The position numbers and the translations under genes were made by a program. A stretch of DNA of 43,195 nucleotides, from the IMG/VR virus record IMGVR_UViG_3300044639_000555, positions 1 to 43,195 of that record, one strand, 5' to 3'. This document shows, piece by piece, positions 15,344 to 36,837 of this stretch (positions within the stretch are counted from its first letter, which is position 1; each line of letters begins with the position of its first letter). The notes under the pieces are model-generated. The model searched no databases. It saw nothing but the letters and a program-made list of their open reading frames with translations, and was not told the origin of the DNA. This stretch comes from a virus.

Positions 15344-15543
15344 CAATTTAGACCCCACTTTACTTTCAACCAAATACGCTCATGTATGTAATAATCAATA
15401 CTGAGTAGTATATGAAGTGCTGTTGCAAATCCAGTAGCATTAGTAATGTCACCTGTAAACATATATGTCCATAATATAGTAAATAGCCATGCTGTGATCC
15501 TATACGTTAGCATTCTAACTAGTGTTCTTTTCTTTGTTTCCAT
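15343..15543 (-). CDS. DUF2061-like small membrane protein
   Basis: This 66-residue protein starts [20 protein letters not shown]. It has two hydrophobic helices, a TGDITNAT turn and the ending YYIHERIWLKVKW, which is the DUF2061 signature (R-x-iaTwRi ... TGd ... YY-HERiW). The family is an uncharacterised inner-membrane protein, often near nucleotide or sulfur metabolism. It is coupled to queE by TAATG. Confidence 0.78.
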   Translation of the reverse strand: METKKRTLVRMLTYRITAWLFTILWTYMFTGDITNATGFATALHILLSIDYYIHERIWLKVKWGLN

Positions 15544-16391
15544 TAAGTTCCCCATTCGTTTTTGAACAATGGGACTTGGAGTCTGTCACTGTATCGCCAG
15601 CCTTTTTGCATTGCGAGTTCCGCCACATTTCTATTATTAAGATTGTACACCCGCTCAACCCCACCGCATGGCATAAGATACACAGGACCACGAAAAGCCC
15701 TCTTACGATATTCATTGACTGCTTCCTCTGCCTCTTCGGCATCTTCTTTTGTAGCAATCACAAACTTAAGATATACAAATCCTACTTCACCGTAATCATG
15801 TATGACCTCTGACTTAATTGCATCTCCCCAACCCTCACCACTGATACTAAGTTTTGGACTTACACTAAATGTAATACAATTCTTTTCTCTGTTTCTTTTC
15901 CAATCACCTAGGTAGTTTTTAACTTCTGGGTATAACATTTGTGTACCGTTTGTCTCAAATGTTAGTTCTTTGAGTGGTCTCATTTTTTCGTGCGAAAGTA
16001 ATTCTGGATATGATTTTTGCCATCCGAGAAGAGGTTCGCCACCGGTGATAACAAGATGCTCATCCAACCAACGACCATGAGGGAGTACATCAATAATGCT
16101 ACTAATAATATCACTGGTAGTGCGATAAGGACTAAGATGCCTGAAACGAGGGTCCCAAGATGCATAACTATCGCATCCAGTGCTGACAAGTGGTAAGGAT
16201 TTATAATCCGTATAATCTTCTGCTTTAATCGCAATAATGTTTCTCTCATTAGTCTTTTCCCCCTTTGGCATACCAAAGCCGTCACATTTGAAGTTACACC
16301 CAAATGTTCTTAGAAAGACGCTAGGTACACCCATATAGCGACCTTCGCCCTGTATACTATAAAATAATTCTGATATTTTAATATCTGTCAT
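15543..16391 (-). CDS. queE: 7-carboxy-7-deazaguanine synthase (QueE)
   Basis: This 282-residue radical SAM enzyme converts 6-carboxytetrahydropterin to 7-carboxy-7-deazaguanine (CDG). [18 protein letters not shown] is the family N-terminus. Cysteines at 32 and 36 (GCNFKC) and at 73 ([11 protein letters not shown]) are the iron-sulfur ligands, and TGGEP at about 116-120 contacts SAM. The third cysteine is far from the first two because of an insertion of about 35 residues, a layout I recall from phage QueE. The start overlaps the DfrB gene by 14 nt. It acts downstream of FolE and QueD, both in this window. Confidence 0.94.
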
Positions 16392-17374: not shown

Positions 17375-17914
17375 TTAATTAAACAAGTCCTCATTCCATT
17401 CACGATGTCCTTCACGACAAGCCATGTTACTTTGAGTTTCACGGACTTCTACACGATAACACCATAAACGCTCTGCCTCACCCGGTCCCCATAAGTCCGG
17501 TATGTAAACTCCATTAACATACTTGTAGAGCATGTCCGCTAAACCTTCACAACCTAATCTAGGAAGAATAGTAAGTTTAGCCATATTTCTTTGTTCTAGT
17601 AATTTGTATGTTTCTAGTTCAGGATCATCTTCTGCAACTAGTAATGTATGGTCAAATTGACTTTCTAAAGTTTTCTTTAATTCTTTTAGCCCACCGTAAT
17701 CTGCCGCCCAATTACGAACATCTAAGTGGTCTGTACCAAAATAAAATTTCATACTGAAACTATAACCATGAATCATATTGCAATGACTGTCTGCACGCCA
17801 TTGTCTGTATGCACACGGAAATGCATCGTGATACTCTTTAGTTGACGTATATTTGTATTGTTTCGATGAACGCCATGGGTTTGAGTCAAAACCAAGTTGA
17901 TTTAAGTTTGCCAT
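17375..17914 (-). CDS. queD: 6-carboxytetrahydropterin synthase (QueD), long form
   Basis: This 179-residue T-fold enzyme turns 7,8-dihydroneopterin triphosphate into 6-carboxytetrahydropterin. FPCAYRQWRADSHCNMIHGY carries the catalytic Cys (45) and zinc His (44, 49). ADYGGLKELK, QFDHTLLVAEDD and VEVRETQSNMA complete the family pattern. The extra length and the CAYRQWRADSHC variant match the long proteobacterial QueD-like form rather than the 120-residue E. coli type. AGGAGAAAAATATG gives the start. It is first in a transcription unit from the promoter at 17932-17960. Confidence 0.92.
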   Translation of the reverse strand: MANLNQLGFDSNPWRSSKQYKYTSTKEYHDAFPCAYRQWRADSHCNMIHGYSFSMKFYFGTDHLDVRNWAADYGGLKELKKTLESQFDHTLLVAEDDPELETYKLLEQRNMAKLTILPRLGCEGLADMLYKYVNGVYIPDLWGPGEAERLWCYRVEVRETQSNMACREGHREWNEDLFN

Positions 17915-19013: not shown

Positions 19014-19278
19014 TATCAACTCCAAAGTGGTCTTTAGTCTTATCTATCATTCGGCGAAAATGCACTATCTTACCTTCATGCCACCTGCGGTCAAAATCAT
19101 TGCATGATGTAGTCTTATATTTCTCCAACATAGCAATCTCATATTCAAGTAAGCCAATGAATTCTGTTGTCATCAACTCGGCGAACTTTTTACATTCAGG
19201 CATATCCCAATGACCGATGCCAAACATATCTTTTTCATAGCCAGCCAGTTCAACAAGTTTTTGAATTCGTTCGTTCAT
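19000..19278 (-). CDS. Small phage protein of the MNERI...HFGV family
   Basis: This 92-residue protein begins MNERIQKLVELAGYEKDMFG and ends KTKDHFGVDNVGT. The core CKKFAELMTTEFIGLLEYEI aligns with the gene at 534-734, so the phage holds at least two copies about 18 kb apart. It is helical and acidic. Its ATG overlaps the folE stop by four bases. Confidence 0.75.
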   Translation of the reverse strand: MNERIQKLVELAGYEKDMFGIGHWDMPECKKFAELMTTEFIGLLEYEIAMLEKYKTTSCNDFDRRWHEGKIVHFRRMIDKTKDHFGVDNVGT

Positions 19279-19949
19279 TTTTGTCTTGCAATTTGATAGA
19301 ATTCTGCACGGGCTGCTGGATCAGTTTTAAATCCACCACCTAAACGTGTAGTAACTGTACTACTACCAGTATCTTCTACACCACGACTCTTAACACAATA
19401 ATGTTGTGCGTCAATCATAACTGCAACATCTTCCGTGTCCAGAATATATTGTAATGTATGAAAGATTTGTTCAGTCAATCGTTCTTGGATTTGTGGACGC
19501 TTACTAAAGTATTCTACAATGCGATTGATCTTGCTTAAACCAAGTACTCTGTCTTTGGGAACATATGCCACAGTAGCAAGCCCATCAATGATTACAAAGT
19601 GATGTTCACAATTACTCTGTACGTTAACATTACGTTCACATACCATTTCGTTGTATTTCATTTTATTGTCAACAGTAGTACATTTAGGGAATGCTTCGTA
19701 ATCTAAACCCCAGAAAATTTCGTTTACGGTCATTTTTGCCCAACGCTTAGGTGTTTCTTCTAAGCTATCATCAGATAAATCAAGACCCAAAGTCTCCATG
19801 ATAGCTTTAAAGTGATTTTCAATGATATCAATTTTATCTTTGCGGTCTATATTGTTAGGTTTAATAGGGGTTTCAACTCCCATTTTAACTAAATGTTCGT
19901 GTACTTTTAATCCTAATTCAGGATTTGTTTTTGTCTTATTGTAACTCAT
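19275..19949 (-). CDS. folE: GTP cyclohydrolase I (FolE)
   Basis: This 224-residue enzyme opens GTP to 7,8-dihydroneopterin triphosphate, the first step of both folate and 7-deazaguanine synthesis. LEETPKRWAKM, then SNCEHHFVIIDG with zinc ligands Cys and His, LGLSKINRIVEYFSKRPQIQ, and HYCVKSRGVEDTGSSTVTT are the family blocks. All catalytic residues appear present. The start at 19949 has GGAGG eight bases upstream. An ATG 12 codons earlier lacks this. It is preceded by a hairpin leader and a late-like promoter motif. Confidence 0.95.
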   Translation of the reverse strand: MSYNKTKTNPELGLKVHEHLVKMGVETPIKPNNIDRKDKIDIIENHFKAIMETLGLDLSDDSLEETPKRWAKMTVNEIFWGLDYEAFPKCTTVDNKMKYNEMVCERNVNVQSNCEHHFVIIDGLATVAYVPKDRVLGLSKINRIVEYFSKRPQIQERLTEQIFHTLQYILDTEDVAVMIDAQHYCVKSRGVEDTGSSTVTTRLGGGFKTDPAARAEFYQIARQK

Positions 19950-19986
19950 AGATAACCCTCCGTTGTGAGTGTTTTGTTTTGACATT

Positions 19987-20006
19987 GTGCAACCTTTATG
20001 TTGCAC
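19987..20006 (-). promoter_or_regulatory. Perfect hairpin in the folE leader
   Basis: Minus strand GTGCAAC-ATAAAG-GTTGCAC is a perfect 7-bp stem with a 6-nt loop. It is about 38 nt before the folE ATG and starts three bases after a late-promoter-like motif, so it would form the 5' end of the message. Confidence 0.6.
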
Positions 20007-28183: not shown

Positions 28184-29464
28184 TTATCTAATATAACTTA
28201 CTTGACCTGTTCTGCTAATAGATAAATGGCTGCGTACCCAGTCAACTATATCACCTTCTTGGCCCTTTAATGTGTTACCCCAACCTCTATCTCTATCTAG
28301 ACCAAAATAATCTTCCATAGCATAGGCATATATTGAATATAAGTCCCAATAGCTGAACGAGTCCTCTGTTTGTTCCATAAGGTCTACTGCTATTTCTTTT
28401 AGTGTTTGTGGGTAGATTTTTAATGAGCCTTTTACATCACGCACGAATCTTCTGGCTTCATCATTGTAATCTAGGTAATCATTTAGTTTATCGTGTTCGT
28501 GAATAGTATCCCATACTTCCATCTCACTCATTTCATCATTGATGATTCCTAATTTTGTTGCTTCTTCCATTTGCCATTCTTTAAAGCTATCATCTTCTGA
28601 TTCCCATTGATTTACTTTTTCCCAAACGTGGTCCATTACGTAATCAACTATTTGTGTACCGATCGACTCAAGTAATGAATCATCGGTAAAAGGAATCATT
28701 GATTTAATCTCAGGCTCTGCTTGAATAAAGTACTTGTATAAATTAGGAAATCTAGAAGTTAGTAGACTATACAAATTGGTGTTATCATCATTTTCATCCA
28801 TAAATTGATCTGTACCAAAATGTAATTGATATTTTTCTCCATCTGATCTAGGTTGAGTAGGTAACAAAATATACAAAGGACTCTTTGGAGAACTATATCT
28901 ACTAAAATAATTTGTTCCTTTTGTGGCCGCTGTGCACCAACGAGTACCTTGACCATAATAACAAGCGGCCTGTTCATTATCAGGTATCATAACTCTTACA
29001 TCACTATCTTTATAAACTTCCCTAGCCTGCCCTTTATCTTTTAGTGGCTCTGCAGGAGGCTCATAGTTACCCACTATAGTATAAAATTGACTATAACTTA
29101 AACGCATGATATCTTTAGCATCAGCAGGAAAATCATTACGCTTTTTATATTTGTCATACTCGGCAAGCATAGGACTAAGCACATGTGCATCTTCTAAACG
29201 TTTTATATTTTGTTTAGCATACTCACGTGCAAGCCATGGTGTATAAATTTTATTTTTAGTAGGATCCGCTTCTTCTAAGTTACGTAATACTTCTGCAAGT
29301 ATTGCTTCTGTATTTGGTTGACCATCAGGAAATACAAATGTTGTATCATAGAATTGATACTGTTGTTTGTCTCCGCCTGTTGCAAAGGCATTTATCAACT
29401 GCGGACCTACCATCTGTGCAGTTTTGGCTCTATTGTATTCAAGTAAAAACTCACGGGCTCTCAT
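28184..29464 (-). CDS. Virion-associated GTRWCTA-domain protein with CTS-like leader
   Basis: This 426-residue protein starts MRAREFLLEYNR, a leader shared with four other genes here and like the T4 capsid-targeting sequence. The middle (about 160-240) holds CYYGQGTRWCTAATKGTNYF, then SPLYILL and KYQLHFGTDQFMDENDDN. I recall this GTxWCTA domain from many phage proteins without known activity. The conserved Trp-Cys suggests a possible active cysteine. The C-terminal part is acidic and helical. It is coupled to the upstream gene by ATGA and is last in the cassette. Confidence 0.72.
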   Translation of the reverse strand: MRAREFLLEYNRAKTAQMVGPQLINAFATGGDKQQYQFYDTTFVFPDGQPNTEAILAEVLRNLEEADPTKNKIYTPWLAREYAKQNIKRLEDAHVLSPMLAEYDKYKKRNDFPADAKDIMRLSYSQFYTIVGNYEPPAEPLKDKGQAREVYKDSDVRVMIPDNEQAACYYGQGTRWCTAATKGTNYFSRYSSPKSPLYILLPTQPRSDGEKYQLHFGTDQFMDENDDNTNLYSLLTSRFPNLYKYFIQAEPEIKSMIPFTDDSLLESIGTQIVDYVMDHVWEKVNQWESEDDSFKEWQMEEATKLGIINDEMSEMEVWDTIHEHDKLNDYLDYNDEARRFVRDVKGSLKIYPQTLKEIAVDLMEQTEDSFSYWDLYSIYAYAMEDYFGLDRDRGWGNTLKGQEGDIVDWVRSHLSISRTGQVSYIR

Positions 29465-31389
29465 TGAAATATCTCAGAATGTTCCTTACCGTATATTTTA
29501 ATGTATTTTCCTGCCATCATATCAGCTAGTGCTTCAATAGGACTTCCAGGATAGCTATCACCATGTTTAATCATACCAAGCTGGTCTTGTCTATGATGTA
29601 CTAACTCATGGAATATAGTACGGAAAATATCAATTAGATTACGATTACCAATGTATACCCAAATTGTGTCGCCAGAGTGTACTCCAGTATGATGACCTTT
29701 TTGTGCCTTATCGGTATTTTTACTCAATATAAATTTAGGGTATGGCTTTTCTATATTCAATGTTTTTAACGACCAATTGATAAAATCTTTAATTCGTTGA
29801 ACATCATCTTTACCTTCAACTGATTCACGTAAATGACTATTCGTGCCTGCTGCCCAACCCTTAAAGTCATATGCATCATCCCTTGGTAATAGAACAGACT
29901 GTCCCGCTTTATTGGTAAGTAAGACGTTATCAACTTCCTCATCATCATCAATATTCCAACCACGTTGTTGTAGTTGTGCCGTGATAAATTGTAATTGATT
30001 TCTAGTACCAGAACCATATCCTTTTGGATCTAGTGCGGATGCAGAACCTCCATCGTCCATATCAGCCCAGAACCAATCGTTAGCTAATTTCAATACATCT
30101 TTGGGTAACTTCTTCCAAGTAATACCGGCTGGTTTTTTAGCAATTGGTACAACGTTCTGACTAGTTGTGCGTTGTGTTACTTGTTTTTTCTTTTGTAATG
30201 GACTTACGTTAGGTTTAGTAGGTTGTTGCTTGTTGGGGAATTGCACTACTACACCCTCGTAAAAAGCTGTTGAGGGGATAGCTTTTAAAACATAATTGAT
30301 TTTTGGATACTTTTCATGCAACATGTTTAAAAATTCCATTGCCGCATTTCTTGTTTTAAATTTAACTACAGGTTGACCATCTTGGTATATGGCAAAATCT
30401 TTATCTGACTCGCTTCTATCTGGCATAGAAACTACGTCACCCTCATTCATTCCTTTTTTTTTCTTAGCAATAGCAATGGCTGCTTGTTGTTTTAGATTTT
30501 TAGCTTCATTAATTTTTTGTTCTGCAAGCATTACTAATTCTTCTAGTTGTTCTATGCTTTCACAATTCCATCTGCGTAGTGCCAATGCTTTGGGAGTCGG
30601 CTTACCATTAGGCTTTTTCATAGGACCTTTGTTACCGCCCATTCTAGCACAGAAACTTTTACGACGGTTGGCAGCTTTGCTTCCTGGTTTTAATTTACTT
30701 GGCTTAGTTGTTACAGCAGTTTTTAACTTACTACCTGGATTTTCTCTACGATAAGCATTCACAGCCTTTTGACTCATTCCAGAAGTCTTATCTTTCTTGT
30801 TGACTTTGTTCCAGTCTTCTTCAACACTTTCAGCCGGTACACAGTTGTTTACTCTAGTGTCGCCCTTCATTTTAGTGCCTTGCTTTTTATAACCTGTCCA
30901 GCATTTAGGATCAAGACGTTGCTTTTCTTCCGCCACACCTTGTGTTGTATTATCTTGTGGCTGTCCGCTCATAGGAGATACTATGACATAATTTCCAATC
31001 TGAGTATAGTTTTGATGTGCTAATTGATTTTTTATATCTTGTGGGTTACCTAATTTATATTTTTGTACAGCCATTGATAGATTTACTTTATCTAAAATCT
31101 TACCTTTTAGGTCTTGTACTACTACCACAGGATTTGGAGTATTTGCTTCTAGTGAACCTTCCGCCACACCTTCCTCTCCTAATTTTTCTTTGTATTTCTT
31201 TATCCAGGTGTCTGGCGTATGACCGTATTTGCTTACAAATAAATCATGTAATTTTTTACCGGTGATCTTGTAACGCTTACTGATGCGTTGCATTAAATTG
31301 TCAATAGTACTGTAGTCTATCTTGCGTAGGCTAGGTAGTTTCTTTTTCAATTCATCGACTGCGGATTCGTAAAGTAGTTCTGCTCTCAT
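29461..31389 (-). CDS. Multi-domain protein with CTS-like leader and HExxH zincin end
   Basis: This 642-residue mosaic starts MRAELLYESA. In order it has a helical module (about 10-70), GVAEG, a small beta module, QGVAEEK, a Cys-containing basic module (DPKCWTGYKKQGTKMKG), a second basic module like DUF6321 (RRKSFCARMGGNKGPMKKPN ... ALRRWNC), coiled coils, and a C-terminal metallopeptidase-like domain with FHELVHHRQDQ (HExxH) and later a GSPIEALAD segment that supplies a third ligand. GVAE-type sites between modules look like prohead-protease cuts. No Shine-Dalgarno is present. The promoter motif at 31396-31405 lies directly before the ATG. It is probably head-packaged (inference). Confidence 0.75.
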   Translation of the reverse strand: MRAELLYESAVDELKKKLPSLRKIDYSTIDNLMQRISKRYKITGKKLHDLFVSKYGHTPDTWIKKYKEKLGEEGVAEGSLEANTPNPVVVVQDLKGKILDKVNLSMAVQKYKLGNPQDIKNQLAHQNYTQIGNYVIVSPMSGQPQDNTTQGVAEEKQRLDPKCWTGYKKQGTKMKGDTRVNNCVPAESVEEDWNKVNKKDKTSGMSQKAVNAYRRENPGSKLKTAVTTKPSKLKPGSKAANRRKSFCARMGGNKGPMKKPNGKPTPKALALRRWNCESIEQLEELVMLAEQKINEAKNLKQQAAIAIAKKKKGMNEGDVVSMPDRSESDKDFAIYQDGQPVVKFKTRNAAMEFLNMLHEKYPKINYVLKAIPSTAFYEGVVVQFPNKQQPTKPNVSPLQKKKQVTQRTTSQNVVPIAKKPAGITWKKLPKDVLKLANDWFWADMDDGGSASALDPKGYGSGTRNQLQFITAQLQQRGWNIDDDEEVDNVLLTNKAGQSVLLPRDDAYDFKGWAAGTNSHLRESVEGKDDVQRIKDFINWSLKTLNIEKPYPKFILSKNTDKAQKGHHTGVHSGDTIWVYIGNRNLIDIFRTIFHELVHHRQDQLGMIKHGDSYPGSPIEALADMMAGKYIKIYGKEHSEIFQ

Positions 31390-31395
31390 AGTATA

Positions 31396-31405
31396 GTATT
31401 TATGC
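31396..31405 (-). promoter_or_regulatory. Late-promoter-like motif, leaderless start
   Basis: Minus strand GCATAAATAC is followed by TATACT and then at once by the ATG at 31389. The motif resembles the T4 late core TATAAATA with about 6 nt to the start codon. No Shine-Dalgarno is present. Confidence 0.5.
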
Positions 31406-31475
31406 TCACTTCGATGAATTGGGTAGCGAATCCTATCATGCAGCCAGCAGCCGGCTACTCGGTCCTAAGGCGAGT

Positions 31476-31547
31476 TCATACAGGGCTATATGGGTTCAAA
31501 GGTCTGTCCCATTCCCCTTCTTGTTCTGGATATACTGGATATTGCAT
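31476..31547 (-). CDS. Possible 23-aa peptide
   Basis: The frame MQYPVYPEQEGEWDRPLNPY ends SPV and lies in the 160-nt space between two virion-cassette genes, starting just after the stop of the upstream gene. It is Pro/Tyr-rich with acidic residues. There is no clear ribosome site. The rest of this spacer holds a late-like motif and a weak GC-rich inverted repeat (GCCGGC region, about 31440-31455). Confidence 0.25.
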   Translation of the reverse strand: MQYPVYPEQEGEWDRPLNPYSPV

Positions 31548-31550
31548 ATG

Positions 31551-32375
31551 TCAATCCCACTCTAAAAATCTTATTTCAAAGGTATTAATCTCAGTTGGCC
31601 GAATTAATATAGGACGTGTTTTACTGATGCTATTAGTTAATAACCAATCTTTACTGTCGCTATCTCTATATTTTAATACAGGATTGTATCTTAATTTCAT
31701 AATCTGGTCATACCCGTGCAATACATCTCCGGTTACTCCTAAAAACCAATCAGATTGATCTCTACCTGAAGTTCTATCATATTTAGATGTATAACGAGAA
31801 AATTTACCTGTTAATTTATCTGTGTATGCTTCATATCCGTGTACTTGCAAATCAGTAACTGATTCTGCGGTATATTTCAACTTTTTACCACTACCATGTG
31901 CCAATATTATTCTATATGTAGTGTATTCTATTTCATTTGGATACATGATATCTAATAACATAGTATAAAAGAAATTAACTTTTTCGGGTTCATAACTATG
32001 ATCAGTTTGGTCTACTGATATAAACCCTGAATTTATGATGCCGCTATGTGATTTGGGGCCAAAGAATGTACATTCATTATCCCCTCGCCAAGCCGCGGCA
32101 AACTTCTTAGTAACATTTTCATCCCCGTTATTACAACAAACCCATAATACTGAGAAGTTACCGATATTTTTACCATGAACAAATGGTAAATTATTATTTG
32201 GATTTTGTCCTTGCGGGATATTTATGTTTTCCCGTAATACATCAAACGTAACATTATATTTTGATGTAGGAACGTTTTTGTCAAATTTAATATAAACAAA
32301 ATTATCTTGTTCTCGTTCATCTCGCAAACCTGTCATTTGCAGTAATTTATTAGCAAAGTTTCTAAATCCACCCAT
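31551..32375 (-). CDS. Hypothetical protein in the virion cassette (274 aa)
   Basis: Starts MGGFRNFANKLLQMTGLRDE. It lacks the shared leader of its neighbours. The rest is strand-rich with aromatic residues (FVYIKFDKNVPTSKYNVTF, FSVLWVCCNNGDENV, NFFYTMLLDIMYPNEIEYTT). A two-cysteine WVCCNN site is notable. No family is recognised. The position among CTS-leader genes suggests a structural or virion role. Confidence 0.6.
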   Translation of the reverse strand: MGGFRNFANKLLQMTGLRDEREQDNFVYIKFDKNVPTSKYNVTFDVLRENINIPQGQNPNNNLPFVHGKNIGNFSVLWVCCNNGDENVTKKFAAAWRGDNECTFFGPKSHSGIINSGFISVDQTDHSYEPEKVNFFYTMLLDIMYPNEIEYTTYRIILAHGSGKKLKYTAESVTDLQVHGYEAYTDKLTGKFSRYTSKYDRTSGRDQSDWFLGVTGDVLHGYDQIMKLRYNPVLKYRDSDSKDWLLTNSISKTRPILIRPTEINTFEIRFLEWD

Positions 32376-32432
32376 ATATATCCCGTTAATAACTTACTTA
32401 GTCTATGTATATAAGGGCTTCACTTTTTTAAA

Positions 32433-33062
32433 TCACAATATTCTATAGTAATCTATAAAGTTTTCATGTCTATCTTTGAGACCGCGTAGTGCTGGATTAA
32501 TAAATTTAGTAACTGTAGCAGTATCTTTAAAATTAGTTATATTAGGTCTAACTCTAGTTTTCCAATACCATATAGCAATTTTGGCAGCAATGTCAGGTCT
32601 GGCTGCATATTCAGGATGATTGATTAAATCAATATTCAATGCTCGACTAGCCATTTTATAATTATCACGACCAGTTAACTGAACAAACCCACGACCATGA
32701 TACTTTTCCCCATCACCTGGGCGAGTGTTTCCTAATATCTTTGCTGTCTTGGGAGCATATTGAACACCATAACGTTTTTCAAAATAGCCCTTGCCCATTG
32801 GTTTTTCTTTTAATCGTTCAAAGTTCCATGATTCATGTTTCATCTGAGCCAAGAACTGAGCCAGTTCTGGACCTTTTAATCCAGAACCTATTGCAACTTT
32901 TTGTAAAGTGATTTCATTTTGTGGATTATTGCTTAATACATTAAAATCTGTAGGCATCTTCAAGCCTAGTGAGGCTTGTGCTCCAGTGGCTGCACCAGCA
33001 CCCATTGCACCAAGAAATCCTCTGCGAGTTAAATCTTCAGCAATGATTTCTGATGCTCTCAT
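32433..33062 (-). CDS. GH19-type lysozyme with CTS-like leader and Tat-like signal
   Basis: This 209-residue protein starts MRASEIIAED, the capsid-leader pattern, then TRRGFLGAMGAGAATGAQA, a twin-arginine signal (T-R-R-x-F-L, hydrophobic stretch, A-x-A). The mature part is a GH19 chitinase/lysozyme-type domain: FLAQMKHESWNFERLKE with the candidate catalytic Glu, YHGRGFVQLTGRDNYKMA, then AIWYWKTRVRPN and GLKDRHENF. It would cut peptidoglycan. Its ATG overlaps the Dps stop (TAATG). Leader plus Tat signal in one protein is unusual. Confidence 0.8.
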   Translation of the reverse strand: MRASEIIAEDLTRRGFLGAMGAGAATGAQASLGLKMPTDFNVLSNNPQNEITLQKVAIGSGLKGPELAQFLAQMKHESWNFERLKEKPMGKGYFEKRYGVQYAPKTAKILGNTRPGDGEKYHGRGFVQLTGRDNYKMASRALNIDLINHPEYAARPDIAAKIAIWYWKTRVRPNITNFKDTATVTKFINPALRGLKDRHENFIDYYRIL

Positions 33063-33502
33063 TATGCACGTTCTTTTTTAAGTGTACTGCGAATCATCCA
33101 CTGATGTTTTTCATGTGCATCTAATCTCTCTGCAATGAAGTTAGCAATGCCTTGTTTGTTTTCTTCTGTCGCTGATTGAAAGCACATATTTAGAAAATCA
33201 ATCATTTTAGCGTTATCAGTTAGTAATTCAGCAAACATCAATTCAGCACGTGGAATCTTAATTTGGTCTGGGATAATACTAAGTTCAGCATAACGTGACA
33301 GACTACCTGGCGTATAGCTGTCTAATGTACGAATATATTCAGCAATTCTATCTACTGCACCATATACTTCTGTGTAGAAATTATCAAAGAAACTATGATA
33401 TTGCGGGAAGTCGGCACCTTCTACATTCCAATGAAAGTTCTGTGCTTTGATAGCAAGTGCATTTGTACTTGCTAATAATATCTTTAAATTATCTGTTAAC
33501 AT
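33062..33502 (-). CDS. dps: Dps-family ferritin
   Basis: This 146-residue protein matches Dps, a 12-subunit cage that oxidises iron and protects DNA. The ferroxidase ligands are all visible: H24, H36, D40, D51 and E55, each exactly 27 less than E. coli H51, H63, D67, D78 and E82 as I recall them, in AQNFHWNVEGADFPQYHSFF and AVDRIAEYI. The N-terminal DNA-binding Lys-rich tail of E. coli Dps is absent. The gene is in the cassette of head-leader genes, between the GP88-like protein and the lysozyme. Confidence 0.9.
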   Translation of the reverse strand: MLTDNLKILLASTNALAIKAQNFHWNVEGADFPQYHSFFDNFYTEVYGAVDRIAEYIRTLDSYTPGSLSRYAELSIIPDQIKIPRAELMFAELLTDNAKMIDFLNMCFQSATEENKQGIANFIAERLDAHEKHQWMIRSTLKKERA

Positions 33503-33503
33503 A

Positions 33504-33563
33504 TCATTTCCCCGGTGGGGTTCCTTTGTTCTTTAAGTAAAAATCAATTACGCCTCTGTCCAT
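33504..33563 (-). CDS. Possible 19-aa peptide before dps
   Basis: The frame MDRGVIDFYLKNKGTPPGK starts two bases after the GP88-like stop and its TGA is followed after one base by the dps ATG (ATGATATG). It exactly fills the space. It could be a leader peptide, a remnant of a longer gene, or chance. The RNA here holds a small CCCC-ACC-GGGG hairpin. Confidence 0.35.
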   Translation of the reverse strand: MDRGVIDFYLKNKGTPPGK

Positions 33564-33565
33564 AT

Positions 33566-35017
33566 TTAGTGCTTTAATAATAATGTACTTAATACGCCAG
33601 TGTCATTAGCAGTTAAATCTGGCTCACCTGGAGCAATGATAACATTCCATTTCATATTAGGAATCTTTTGACCTTTAGTTGCCCACTCATCATAACTTAA
33701 TATTGAGTTAGCACTCAATCCGTATTCTGTAGCTAAACGTTGTTTTAGTTCAGGTAATTTTTCAGGTATGATTTGCCATTGTCCTTCACTACCCTTATCT
33801 AAATTACCCTTAGCATCTTTAACTAGTAAATCTTGGAATAGTCCAGTTGGTACAATACGACTATTCTTAGTTGTCTTTAAATTAGGATCAGATGCCTTAA
33901 CTTGTTTCTCTTGGCTTGTATGAGCACCTTCACTCCAATTGATAATGAAGTTTGCTGGTTTTTGTGCTAGTGCGGCACCCGCCATTTTTGTATAAGCATA
34001 GAACTTAACATCAGGTAAACTATTTGCTAATTTGAATGCTAAGTCTAAATATTCTGGACTAAAGAAGTCACCGGCGTCATGCCAACGAATAGTTACACTA
34101 TATCCGCCCTTCTTACCCAGTTTTTCTTCTTTAGCAATCTCATTTGCTAGTTGTTCAAAGAAACCATCTGGATTGTTTAATAGATATGTAATGATACGCC
34201 CATCACTTAGCCAAGCCGCTTCAAACTGAATCTTGCCGCCTTTCATAGCAAAGCAATCTATTTTACAACTGCCGGCACCAGGACATGTGTTAACAACAAT
34301 TAAGTTGTTCGTACTTTCATCTAATGCAATACCAACTAATGCAGCAAAACCAATATTGAAGAACTGTTCTAAGTCTCCATTACTGTGTTTCATCTTTTCA
34401 TTTTGCTTTAGTAATTTCTTTGGACGTACTGCTAATGCTTGTTTAACATCTTCTTCACGGTATCTGTTGCCTGCAGGATCATAGTATTTGACTACACTAC
34501 TACGGTGAATATAAGGCATGCGATACTTGTCTTGTTTTGTTTTACCAGACACATATTTCTCTTTGCCTTTTTTATCTAACTTAACTTCACCTGTCTTTTT
34601 ATCAATATCAGGAGTGCCGGCAATTCGTGTCATATAGTCTTGAAATTCTTGCCCACCTATATCACGCTGATCAATGGGAAGTTTAGTTGCCTCAGGTATC
34701 ATACCTTTTCCGGCAAGTTTCTCTAGTTCTATATATTGTTGCTTTAACTTTTCCCAAGTTTCTGAGTCGCGCCTTTTATTGGCATCTAACATTTTACTAT
34801 GTAATACATCAGCTTTTGCCAAATAATCATTCATTCGCATCCTGTTGATTCTACTACTAATTGGCTCGGTAGTATTTTCATCAACTTCTTCATTACCATC
34901 TACAAAATCATCAGCTTCAGGATCAGCAACAAACTGATCTACTGACATAATTTTAATGCCACTAGGAGCTCCGGGTAATTTGGGTTCTGCACCTTCGTAT
35001 AATTCTGTTATTTTCAT
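33566..35017 (-). CDS. GP88-like protein with CTS-like leader
   Basis: This 483-residue protein starts MKITELYEGAEP, the shared leader. The C-terminal half matches the phage gene product 88 family as I recall it: NTCPGAGSCKIDCFAMKGGK with three cysteines, VTIRWHDAGDFFSPEYLDLA, then DVKFYAYTK. The cysteine cluster suggests an iron-sulfur or zinc site. No activity is known. The N-terminal half is acidic then helical, with a KGMIPEATK site resembling a prohead-protease cut. ATGA couples it to the upstream gene. Confidence 0.72.
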   Translation of the reverse strand: MKITELYEGAEPKLPGAPSGIKIMSVDQFVADPEADDFVDGNEEVDENTTEPISSRINRMRMNDYLAKADVLHSKMLDANKRRDSETWEKLKQQYIELEKLAGKGMIPEATKLPIDQRDIGGQEFQDYMTRIAGTPDIDKKTGEVKLDKKGKEKYVSGKTKQDKYRMPYIHRSSVVKYYDPAGNRYREEDVKQALAVRPKKLLKQNEKMKHSNGDLEQFFNIGFAALVGIALDESTNNLIVVNTCPGAGSCKIDCFAMKGGKIQFEAAWLSDGRIITYLLNNPDGFFEQLANEIAKEEKLGKKGGYSVTIRWHDAGDFFSPEYLDLAFKLANSLPDVKFYAYTKMAGAALAQKPANFIINWSEGAHTSQEKQVKASDPNLKTTKNSRIVPTGLFQDLLVKDAKGNLDKGSEGQWQIIPEKLPELKQRLATEYGLSANSILSYDEWATKGQKIPNMKWNVIIAPGEPDLTANDTGVLSTLLLKH

Positions 35018-36108
35018 TTTGCTGACTTTCTTAATGCATCGGCAGTTGGAGCTCCTTTACTACCTGGCTTACGCATACGTTCACCACTACCTTGTTTGAT
35101 ACGGTCACGTTTAGCATGTATGTTAGCCCATAAGCCTTTGCTTTCTTCCGCCACACCTTCAACTGTACCTTTGTTATGTGCTTTCCACGCAGTAGCATAA
35201 GCAATTGATTTTTCTTTAGGACTTAGATTACCATCTTTACTATAACTCTTTTTAATGTGCTTTACCATGCGTTCGGCTTTAGCGCCCGGTGGTGCAACTT
35301 CTGCCATACCCTGTCCGTCATCCAAACGCTTAATCAAATCTAATAATTTTTCGTAGCGCATACGATTATTATTCCATGTAGACCAAGAACCATAGTGGTC
35401 TGCATATTGGTCATGACTGTTCTGAGCCAACCATGCTTTTAATGCGTTTGCTTCCTGAGTGTACTCATCTCTCTTTGATCCAGGCCCTTCAATATTCTCA
35501 TCAACTGTATATACATTACCACGTTCATGCTGACTAATCATATAGTCCATAACAGTAACCATTACAGATTTGGCTACTGCAATTTTCTCTTGTACCCATT
35601 CTGGTAAATTCTCGTCTGCTTGTAATTCTTTTCCTAAATGAGTTGATACTCTAACAATCGTGTGTAGATTGTTTTGCACCATGTCTACTTCATCATTATA
35701 TTCCCCGCCACCGTCAAATTCTTCTTTTGCTATGATATCACGGTCTTCAGGTCTATTACCTATGTCACGGGCTTTTGATTTGTTAAAGAATTCTTCTCTT
35801 TTTGCTTTTGTTAGTAATTGTTCTTCGCTGATATCATCTTCACTTAATGCTTCTTCTTTAATACCAGCTTTTCTGCTGTTTGGAAACTTTTCGCTAGAAC
35901 TGATGCCCTGAAACATACTACCTTTCCCTCTACGTTGCATTCCACCAACGGGCTGTGCTACTGATGCAATAGAACCTGCAGTAGTTTCTTCAATCTTTTC
36001 ATCTTCTAACACATTTGGATCACGTCCAAATTTAGGTGCTTGTTGACTCTGTAGTCCTGAAGGACTACTAATTGTTGTTGTCATTTCAAAAAGAGAGGAT
36101 ATTTTCAT
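35014..36108 (-). CDS. Modular basic/acidic protein with CTS-like leader
   Basis: This 364-residue protein starts MKISSLFEMTTT. The middle is helical. The C-terminal part has KKSYSKDGNLSPKEKSIAYA, then TVEGVAEESKGLWANIHAKR and a basic Gly-rich end RMRKPGSKGAPTADALRKSA. GMAE and GVAE occur between modules. I recall these short basic modules from phage virion proteins of DUF5872/6321-like type. A head-packaged DNA-binding or injected protein is inferred. The promoter motif at 36130-36140 is close upstream. Confidence 0.65.
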   Translation of the reverse strand: MKISSLFEMTTTISSPSGLQSQQAPKFGRDPNVLEDEKIEETTAGSIASVAQPVGGMQRRGKGSMFQGISSSEKFPNSRKAGIKEEALSEDDISEEQLLTKAKREEFFNKSKARDIGNRPEDRDIIAKEEFDGGGEYNDEVDMVQNNLHTIVRVSTHLGKELQADENLPEWVQEKIAVAKSVMVTVMDYMISQHERGNVYTVDENIEGPGSKRDEYTQEANALKAWLAQNSHDQYADHYGSWSTWNNNRMRYEKLLDLIKRLDDGQGMAEVAPPGAKAERMVKHIKKSYSKDGNLSPKEKSIAYATAWKAHNKGTVEGVAEESKGLWANIHAKRDRIKQGSGERMRKPGSKGAPTADALRKSAK

Positions 36109-36153: not shown

Positions 36154-36837
36154 TCAAGGTAAATTAAAAAGTATTATTTCTGAGTCATCGGGGCTAGTTA
36201 TTTCTAATATGTTCTCTTGCTCAAACATATATCCGTCACCTTCAACTGATTCATTCCCGTTGATAGTAGCTTTACCTGTAATTACATACAAGTAATATTT
36301 ACGAGTAGGGTCTAGGTTTTCAGTATATGATTCTGTAAAAATACCAGCTTTTACTATAGCATCACTTTGTATAGTAACTGGACTGTCTTTTTGGCTAGCA
36401 ATATTTGCAAACTTGTTTAGTTTATCTTCTCTAGTAAACTGATATCCATCATATTTAGGGGGTATCCCCATCTTATTGGGGCGCAACCATATCTGCAAAT
36501 ATCGAATAGGTTTATCTGAATTATTACCCTCGATATGCCAAATGCCTGACCCCGCTGTCATGTGTTGAACTGAGCCTGTTGGCACTTGTAATATATTACG
36601 CAAGTTATCGTTGTGATAGCATGGGCCATCAATAACATATCCTAATATTTCCATATCCATGTGTTGATGAATAGGGACAAAATTATGCGGTTGAACTCTA
36701 TCATCATTAATTACTTCTAATATAGAGTAATTGACATAGTTAGGATCCCAATAACTGTTATTACTAAATGAACGATATGTCTCAATCCATCCTGCATCCA
36801 TGTGTTTACGTGTATTTGCTGGTCTATATTTAATCAT
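36154..36837 (-). CDS. Pirin-family cupin (YhhW-like)
   Basis: This 227-residue protein carries the pirin N-terminal pattern: RPANTRKHMDAGWIETYRSF, then WDPNYVNYSILEVINDDRV, PIHQHMDMEILGYVIDG with metal-binding His, His and Glu, and VQHMTAGSGIWHIEGNNSDK with a further His. These match quercetin-dioxygenase-like pirins such as E. coli YhhW. The C-terminal cupin is shorter. A phage copy is unexpected. It might bind flavonoid or iron-containing ligands, or act as a redox-dependent cofactor. It stands alone between fibre genes and the virion cassette. Confidence 0.85.
   Translation of the reverse strand: MIKYRPANTRKHMDAGWIETYRSFSNNSYWDPNYVNYSILEVINDDRVQPHNFVPIHQHMDMEILGYVIDGPCYHNDNLRNILQVPTGSVQHMTAGSGIWHIEGNNSDKPIRYLQIWLRPNKMGIPPKYDGYQFTREDKLNKFANIASQKDSPVTIQSDAIVKAGIFTESYTENLDPTRKYYLYVITGKATINGNESVEGDGYMFEQENILEITSPDDSEIILFNLP

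Follow-up and report, generated by a model that had tools for sequence, protein, structure and literature searches.

Five proteins with unrelated bodies, encoded within one strip of a phage genome fragment, begin with a common leader that is very probably a cleavable capsid-targeting propeptide of the phage T4 internal-protein type, packaging its cargo in the head. It is likely that the packaged cargo is also injected into the host. Presence of the cargo in virions is supported in homologues; cleavage in this phage, injection, expression timing and host effect are what we infer. The window analyzed, a whole IMG/VR record of 43,195 bases, is a piece of a large uncultivated freshwater phage, of jumbo type and belonging to the T4 superclade. 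The DNA polymerases of Sinorhizobium phage Phosso (469 kb) and Agrobacterium phage Atu_ph07 (490 kb) share 48% and 47% identity, respectively, with that of the window, and a megablast search with the window gave no match to any named phage. Eighty IMG/VR loci (L001-L080) match the window at 85-100% identity, among them contig L051 (hereafter G001; 524,565 bases), whose polymerase is 86% identical to the window's.

Under the proposed mechanism, cargo would be made late in infection with an 8-9-residue tag mimicking the N-terminus of the phage's small head-core protein, so that, by this resemblance, it would co-assemble with the prohead scaffold core. An S77 (gp21-type) protease would then cleave behind the Glu in (L/I/V)-x-E, so that the cargo is free within the head before DNA filling, and the cargo would exit together with the DNA to act in the next host. 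The strip beside the polymerase would be an island of exchangeable cargo, with bodies replaced behind a constant tag.

A common leader on five proteins of one strip

A start of the form M(K/R)-x-hydrophobic-x-Glu is carried by exactly 5 of the 46 window ORFs of at least 80 aa, and all five genes lie on the minus strand within a single 8-kb strip adjoining the DNA polymerase (Table 1). The N-termini listed in the first-pass annotation (MRAREFLLEY, MRAELLYESA, MRASEIIAED, MKITELYEGA and MKISSLFEMT) were confirmed letter for letter, as was its view that the bodies, including a lysozyme, a zincin, a GTRWCTA and a GP88-like protein, are unrelated: they comprise GH19, DUF6321 with HELVHH, GTRWCTA, GP88 and one protein without a family. 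The pattern occurred at 5/46 ORF starts compared with 1-2/253 internal Met positions (p 0.0004-0.001). With residues 3-16 shuffled and the expectation counted among MK/MR starts, a stricter pattern was seen in four MK/MR starts against a shuffled mean of 0.30. All five leaders end in L/I-x-E; the following residue (P1') is small (S, G) in two of them and Y, D or M in three.

Table 1. Features of the strip in window coordinates; a slash marks the proposed cut
Feature	Position	Strand	Length (aa)	Leader (position)	Remarks
Predicted cargo gene 1	28184..29464	-	426	MRAREFLLE/Y (29438-29464)	GTRWCTA protein
Predicted cargo gene 2	29461..31389	-	642	MRAELLYE/S (31366-31389)	DUF6321 plus C-terminal HExxH (HELVHHRQ) zincin-like domain
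Gene without leader	31551..32375	-			No family match in Pfam or PHROG
Predicted cargo gene 3	32433..33062	-	209	MRASEIIAE/D (33036-33062)	GH19 lysozyme/chitinase
Putative twin-arginine-type signal DLTRRGFLGAMGAGAATGAQA of cargo gene 3	32973..33035	-			Directly after the proposed cut; by sequence
Dps/ferritin-like gene without leader	33062..33502	-			Pfam PF00210, E 5.5e-23
Predicted cargo gene 4	33566..35017	-	483	MKITELYE/G (34994-35017)	GP88 family; Pfam PF17338, E 4e-23
Predicted cargo gene 5	35014..36108	-	364	MKISSLFE/M (36085-36108)	No family

Members of the GTRWCTA family as little as 57% identical still have M-R-A-x-E-F-(L/I)-(L/I/V)-E as their leader, with variation at position 4; a structure model of the GTRWCTA protein (pLDDT 66) gave no PDB match. 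Homologues of the zincin-like protein start with other leaders (MRANEFLRE, MRAIELYE, MRANDFTTE), and phmmer of this protein against PDB sequences found no match. The GH19 protein matched Pfam PF00182 (E 2.3e-13) and a PHROG endolysin (1.6e-36), and most homologues of the GP88 protein keep the leader. Cargo genes 1 and 2, as well as 4 and 5, overlap by four bases and are therefore probably co-translated. The Dps-like protein is not cargo by the leader criterion, and none of 25 homologues carries a leader. A Pirin/quercetinase-like cupin gene (window 36154-36837), also without a leader, adjoins the strip.

Inside the product of cargo gene 5 (window 35014-36108), the stretch IEETTAGSIASV, with the motif EETTAGSIASV, is similar to the start of the mature major capsid protein of G001 (E/SSVGTTTAGNIATL; G001 355449-356651) and also resembles an MS-detected PA5oct protein (EETASAGASSAGGIASV). 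Judged by this similarity, it is perhaps a second head motif in common.

The leader is in excess in related phages and heads many different bodies

The scan of related phages proposed in the first-pass annotation found the leader in excess in G001, a second relative (G002), Atu_ph07 and SCTP-2. In G001, it was present at 26/547 starts compared with 17/2473 internal Met positions (p 6e-10), and 18 leaders were seen against a shuffled mean of 3.4; examples are MRATEFITE, MRANEFLIE, MRAKEFISE and MKISQIIQE. Genome-wide counts were 26/806 starts versus 9/2257 internal Met in Atu_ph07 (p 3e-9) and 21/469 versus 6/1961 in SCTP-2 (p 6e-11). The strict pattern exceeded shuffled sequences in the window and in all four of these relatives. 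Phosso, the nearest named phage by polymerase, showed no leader excess. The strict pattern was at chance level in phiKZ (0/350), SPO1 and N4, three phages in which S77 was also not detected. Applied to T4, the same regular expression recovered IPII and IPIII (MKTYQEFIAE).

Leader-bearing proteins of G001, G002 and L001-L080 fall into about 19 body groups without detectable similarity, a few of which may be chance matches; the set of five is real and part of a wider one. Bodies in relatives include an Fe/Mn superoxide dismutase (Sod_Fe_C, E 2.6e-25), an NT5C nucleotidase, Amidoligase_2, LRV repeats and a GNAT-LysM-GH19 fusion. The structure model of the MRANEFLIE family (mean pLDDT 68) matched DarT/Tpt1 in the PDB (Foldseek, prob 1.00), which predicts an ADP-ribosyltransferase fold; phmmer of this protein against PDB sequences found no match. 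Two close relatives, L002 and L003, keep the window's strip and carry extra leader genes flanked by the same genes as in the window (MRATEFITE, MRAKEFVSE and, in L003, MKITDVLVE), which marks the strip as an exchangeable island with a constant tag.

Some loci in these relatives deserve separate mention. The superoxide dismutase of G001 (34804-35358; L083:16804-17358) starts with MRDLIQLLE/D, lies beside the GP88 homologue of that genome and is a candidate packaged antioxidant enzyme. A 544 aa ORF at L232:2501 onward, headed by MRAQDFLIE, seemingly contains two ADP-ribosyltransferase-like units with PVAEG and QGVAED linkers between them and, from its sequence, looks like a cargo polyprotein. 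In Atu_ph07, eleven leader genes (MRWEQLTE, MKWHQLTEA, MRLFQLLE and others) stand in tandem at 39484-50592 (L124:39484-50000, continuing into L131). Most of them have a YRGM motif after the leader, one has a zeta-toxin-like kinase domain, and a further gene like the members of this array lies at 304780; the YRGM body matched no Pfam family.

Head genes, protease and cut site

The first-pass annotation had suggested looking for a gp21-like protease. Neither a head gene nor an S77 protease was found within the 43-kb window, the record being a fragment; S77 was, in turn, present in 7/7 named relatives tested and in all five tested contigs of at least 186 kb. The head genes of G001 are arranged as in T4, with portal, 74-aa core protein, 276-aa core protein, S77 protease (E 1.9e-27), scaffold and major capsid protein in this order. 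The 74-aa core protein, which adjoins the portal, itself starts with a leader (MKLFEMFDE). Portal-side proteins elsewhere start with MKINDIITE (PA5oct), MKLVELFE (Vibrio 2.275.O), MKLTELF (Atu_ph07) or MLFKDIFE (RaK2), and the window leaders MKITELYE and MKISSLFE are closely similar to these core-protein N-termini. A single PHROG (phrog_13986) includes the 73-74 aa core proteins of both G001 and PA5oct.

T4 gp21 cuts after L/I-X-E, and in the capsid-targeting sequence of T4 IPIII, residues 4 and 7 serve targeting and residues 8 and 10 processing (PMC9026906). Our search pattern left P1' free, as well as P3 in nine-residue leaders. Nevertheless, L/I occupies P3 in 26/34 nine-residue leaders (background 15%), and S/A/G occupies P1' in 32/54 distinct leaders (background 19%, p 5e-11), residues that agree with a predicted cut of T4 gp21 specificity. 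The capsid protein of G001, 63% identical to that of PA5oct over 215 residues, contains KKQLLAE/SSVG near its start, plausibly a site for the same S77 protease. Internal GVAE motifs were considered as extra cut sites and rejected, as they are not enriched in strict-leader proteins.

Leader-bearing proteins among annotated virion proteins of relatives

In PA5oct, the homologue of the GTRWCTA protein (EST35_0205), which starts with MKLFEVFTLYE/D, and the 73-aa core protein (MKINDIITE/G) both carry annotations as structural proteins detected by ESI-MS/MS. Strict leaders occurred in 4-5/90 MS-detected compared with 2-5/309 other PA5oct proteins, a borderline difference (p 0.03-0.12); the loose leader pattern is too noisy in this phage, and a few leader-like ORFs are not among its MS-detected proteins. 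In Atu_ph07, 13 of the 26 leaders lie in CDS 31-76 (13/48 versus 13/758 ORFs), but most belong to one tandem paralogue array, so these counts overstate independence. Virions of Atu_ph07 are reported to contain 29/46 products of CDS 31-76, only two of these 29 having been predicted as structural, a figure for the region as a whole (PMC6102473).

Together, the S77 protease, the head cluster, the leader-bearing core protein, the P3 and P1' residues and the PA5oct mass spectrometry argue well for the capsid targeting and prohead-protease cleavage put forward in the first-pass annotation. The leader could instead reflect ordinary N-terminal bias or common ancestry of gene starts, with no targeting role, and the loose pattern does often match by chance (in G002, 10 observed versus 6.8 shuffled). 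The strict pattern, however, exceeds shuffles in the window, G001, G002, Atu_ph07 and SCTP-2 and not in phiKZ, SPO1 or N4; positions left unconstrained follow gp21 specificity; and leader residues are conserved while position 4 drifts. This explanation, already disfavoured, is therefore highly improbable. A different question is whether the cargo, once packaged and cleaved, stays in the head as an assembly or DNA-condensing accessory rather than an injected effector. Head assembly is slower in T4 mutants of IPIII (PMC9026906), and the leader is common to cargo and true core protein, both of which speak for such a role. Enzyme bodies such as GH19 with an export signal, superoxide dismutase, Amidoligase_2, NT5C and the predicted ADP-ribosyltransferase fold are, in contrast, poorly suited as scaffold, and the replacement of bodies between close relatives fits host-directed cargo. 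We thus regard retention in the head as quite unlikely.

A possible export signal behind the leader of the GH19 enzyme

The twin-arginine-type signal that directly follows the proposed cut in the GH19 protein is retained in the homologues L063, L197, L198 and L206. An (S/T)RRxFL motif, a weakly hydrophobic stretch and an A-x-A site are all present by sequence in the window, L063, L197 and L206; the Pfam TAT_signal match on L063 (E 0.017) is weak and below cut-off. In L206, leader and signal are joined as MRSYEFISE/IDRRGFLGALGAGAMAAAGVPAAQA. The proteins of L063, L197, L198 and G001 have the signal further in, at 70-390 residues, with VVE, IDE, VDE or IAD ahead of it; Asp in place of Glu, as in IAD, leaves targeting intact in T4 and blocks processing (PMC9026906). 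Counting these internal signals, (V/I)-x-E stands directly ahead of the RRGF segment in 5/6 distinct homologue contexts. This arrangement suggests that prohead cleavage may uncover an export signal of the enzyme. GH19 would then be a two-stage effector, packed by its leader, cut so that the Tat signal becomes the N-terminus, injected into the cytoplasm and sent on in folded form to the periplasm through the Tat system of the host, a scenario that we put forward only tentatively. If true, the exported enzyme might, for instance, attack the cell wall early in infection.

For this gene alone, the leader might alternatively be no more than a Tat signal peptide's n-region, and the enzyme would then be produced late in infection as a periplasmic endolysin; the N-terminus MRASEIIAEDLTRRGFLGAMGAGAATGAQA can be read as a single Tat signal ending in AQA. 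Against this, homologues begin with leaders of this kind (MRATEFITE and others) and have the RRGF segment 70-390 residues downstream, and G001 encodes a second GH19 without a leader alongside the leader-bearing one, which makes the endolysin reading unlikely.

Relation to known packaging systems

The T4 proteins IPI, IPII, IPIII and Alt likewise carry a short N-terminal tag, of 10-19 residues in the IPs, that is cut by gp21 (S77) after L/I-X-E, and at the exchangeable IP loci, too, one conserved tag precedes unrelated bodies (PMC9026906, PMC3012670, PMC12373910). In T4, the packaged proteins are few and, apart from the larger enzyme Alt, mostly small, whereas here about 20 candidates per genome are found, many with enzyme domains and 200-800 aa long. 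The leader consensus is MRAxEFxxE rather than MKTYQEFIAE, and the island adjoins the DNA polymerase. Cargo with a predicted ADP-ribosyltransferase fold in relatives parallels Alt, which belongs to the same enzyme class. Atu_ph07 also has its leader genes (MRWEQLTE and others) clustered in a strip of virion proteins, though mainly from one tandem family, whereas the bodies in the window all differ; no leader is described in the part of the Atu_ph07 paper used here (PMC6102473). In phiKZ and SPN3US, similar to our proposal, head proteins are packaged and cleaved behind a motif with Glu (S/A-X-E in phiKZ), several of them being ejected (PMC9026906), but their propeptides differ and the short leader was not found in phiKZ. 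Polyvalent and MuF-fused effectors, too, deliver enzymes such as ADP-ribosyltransferases with the DNA (PMC9503650); these are large multidomain proteins or MuF fusions, whereas the proteins here are mostly smaller and would bear a cleavable tag.

The literature searched describes neither the scale of the system nor its enzyme cargo nor its use in this clade, in line with the first-pass annotation's remark that the arrangement is not known to have been described for the group, while the principle is known in T4 and relatives (PMC3012670, PMC12373910). As the logic is that of IPI, IPII, IPIII and Alt, we are dealing with an expansion, not a new principle: the system is of the T4 internal-protein type, greatly expanded in jumbo phages. 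The function of most huge-phage genes is not known. If the leader marks head cargo, some 20 proteins per genome could be sorted as delivered at infection, making them candidates for counter-defence or take-over. The T4 system would be widened from chiefly small restriction inhibitors to a general code by which enzymes are loaded as cargo, and the leaders would offer natural tags for putting proteins into large heads.

Further observations in the window

The T4 late promoter TATAAATA has no copy in the whole window, compared with 6.2 expected by chance, and ATAAATA is rarer than expected (10 versus 23), as if avoided; SATAAATAC occurs just 5' of two cargo starts, which is not significant. Elsewhere in the window, genes for a 6-pyruvoyl tetrahydropterin synthase (QueD-like; 17375-17914), a GTP cyclohydrolase I (19275-20006) and a protein with QueE-like N-terminal sequence (15543-16391) possibly form a 7-deazaguanine DNA-modification or queuosine pathway.
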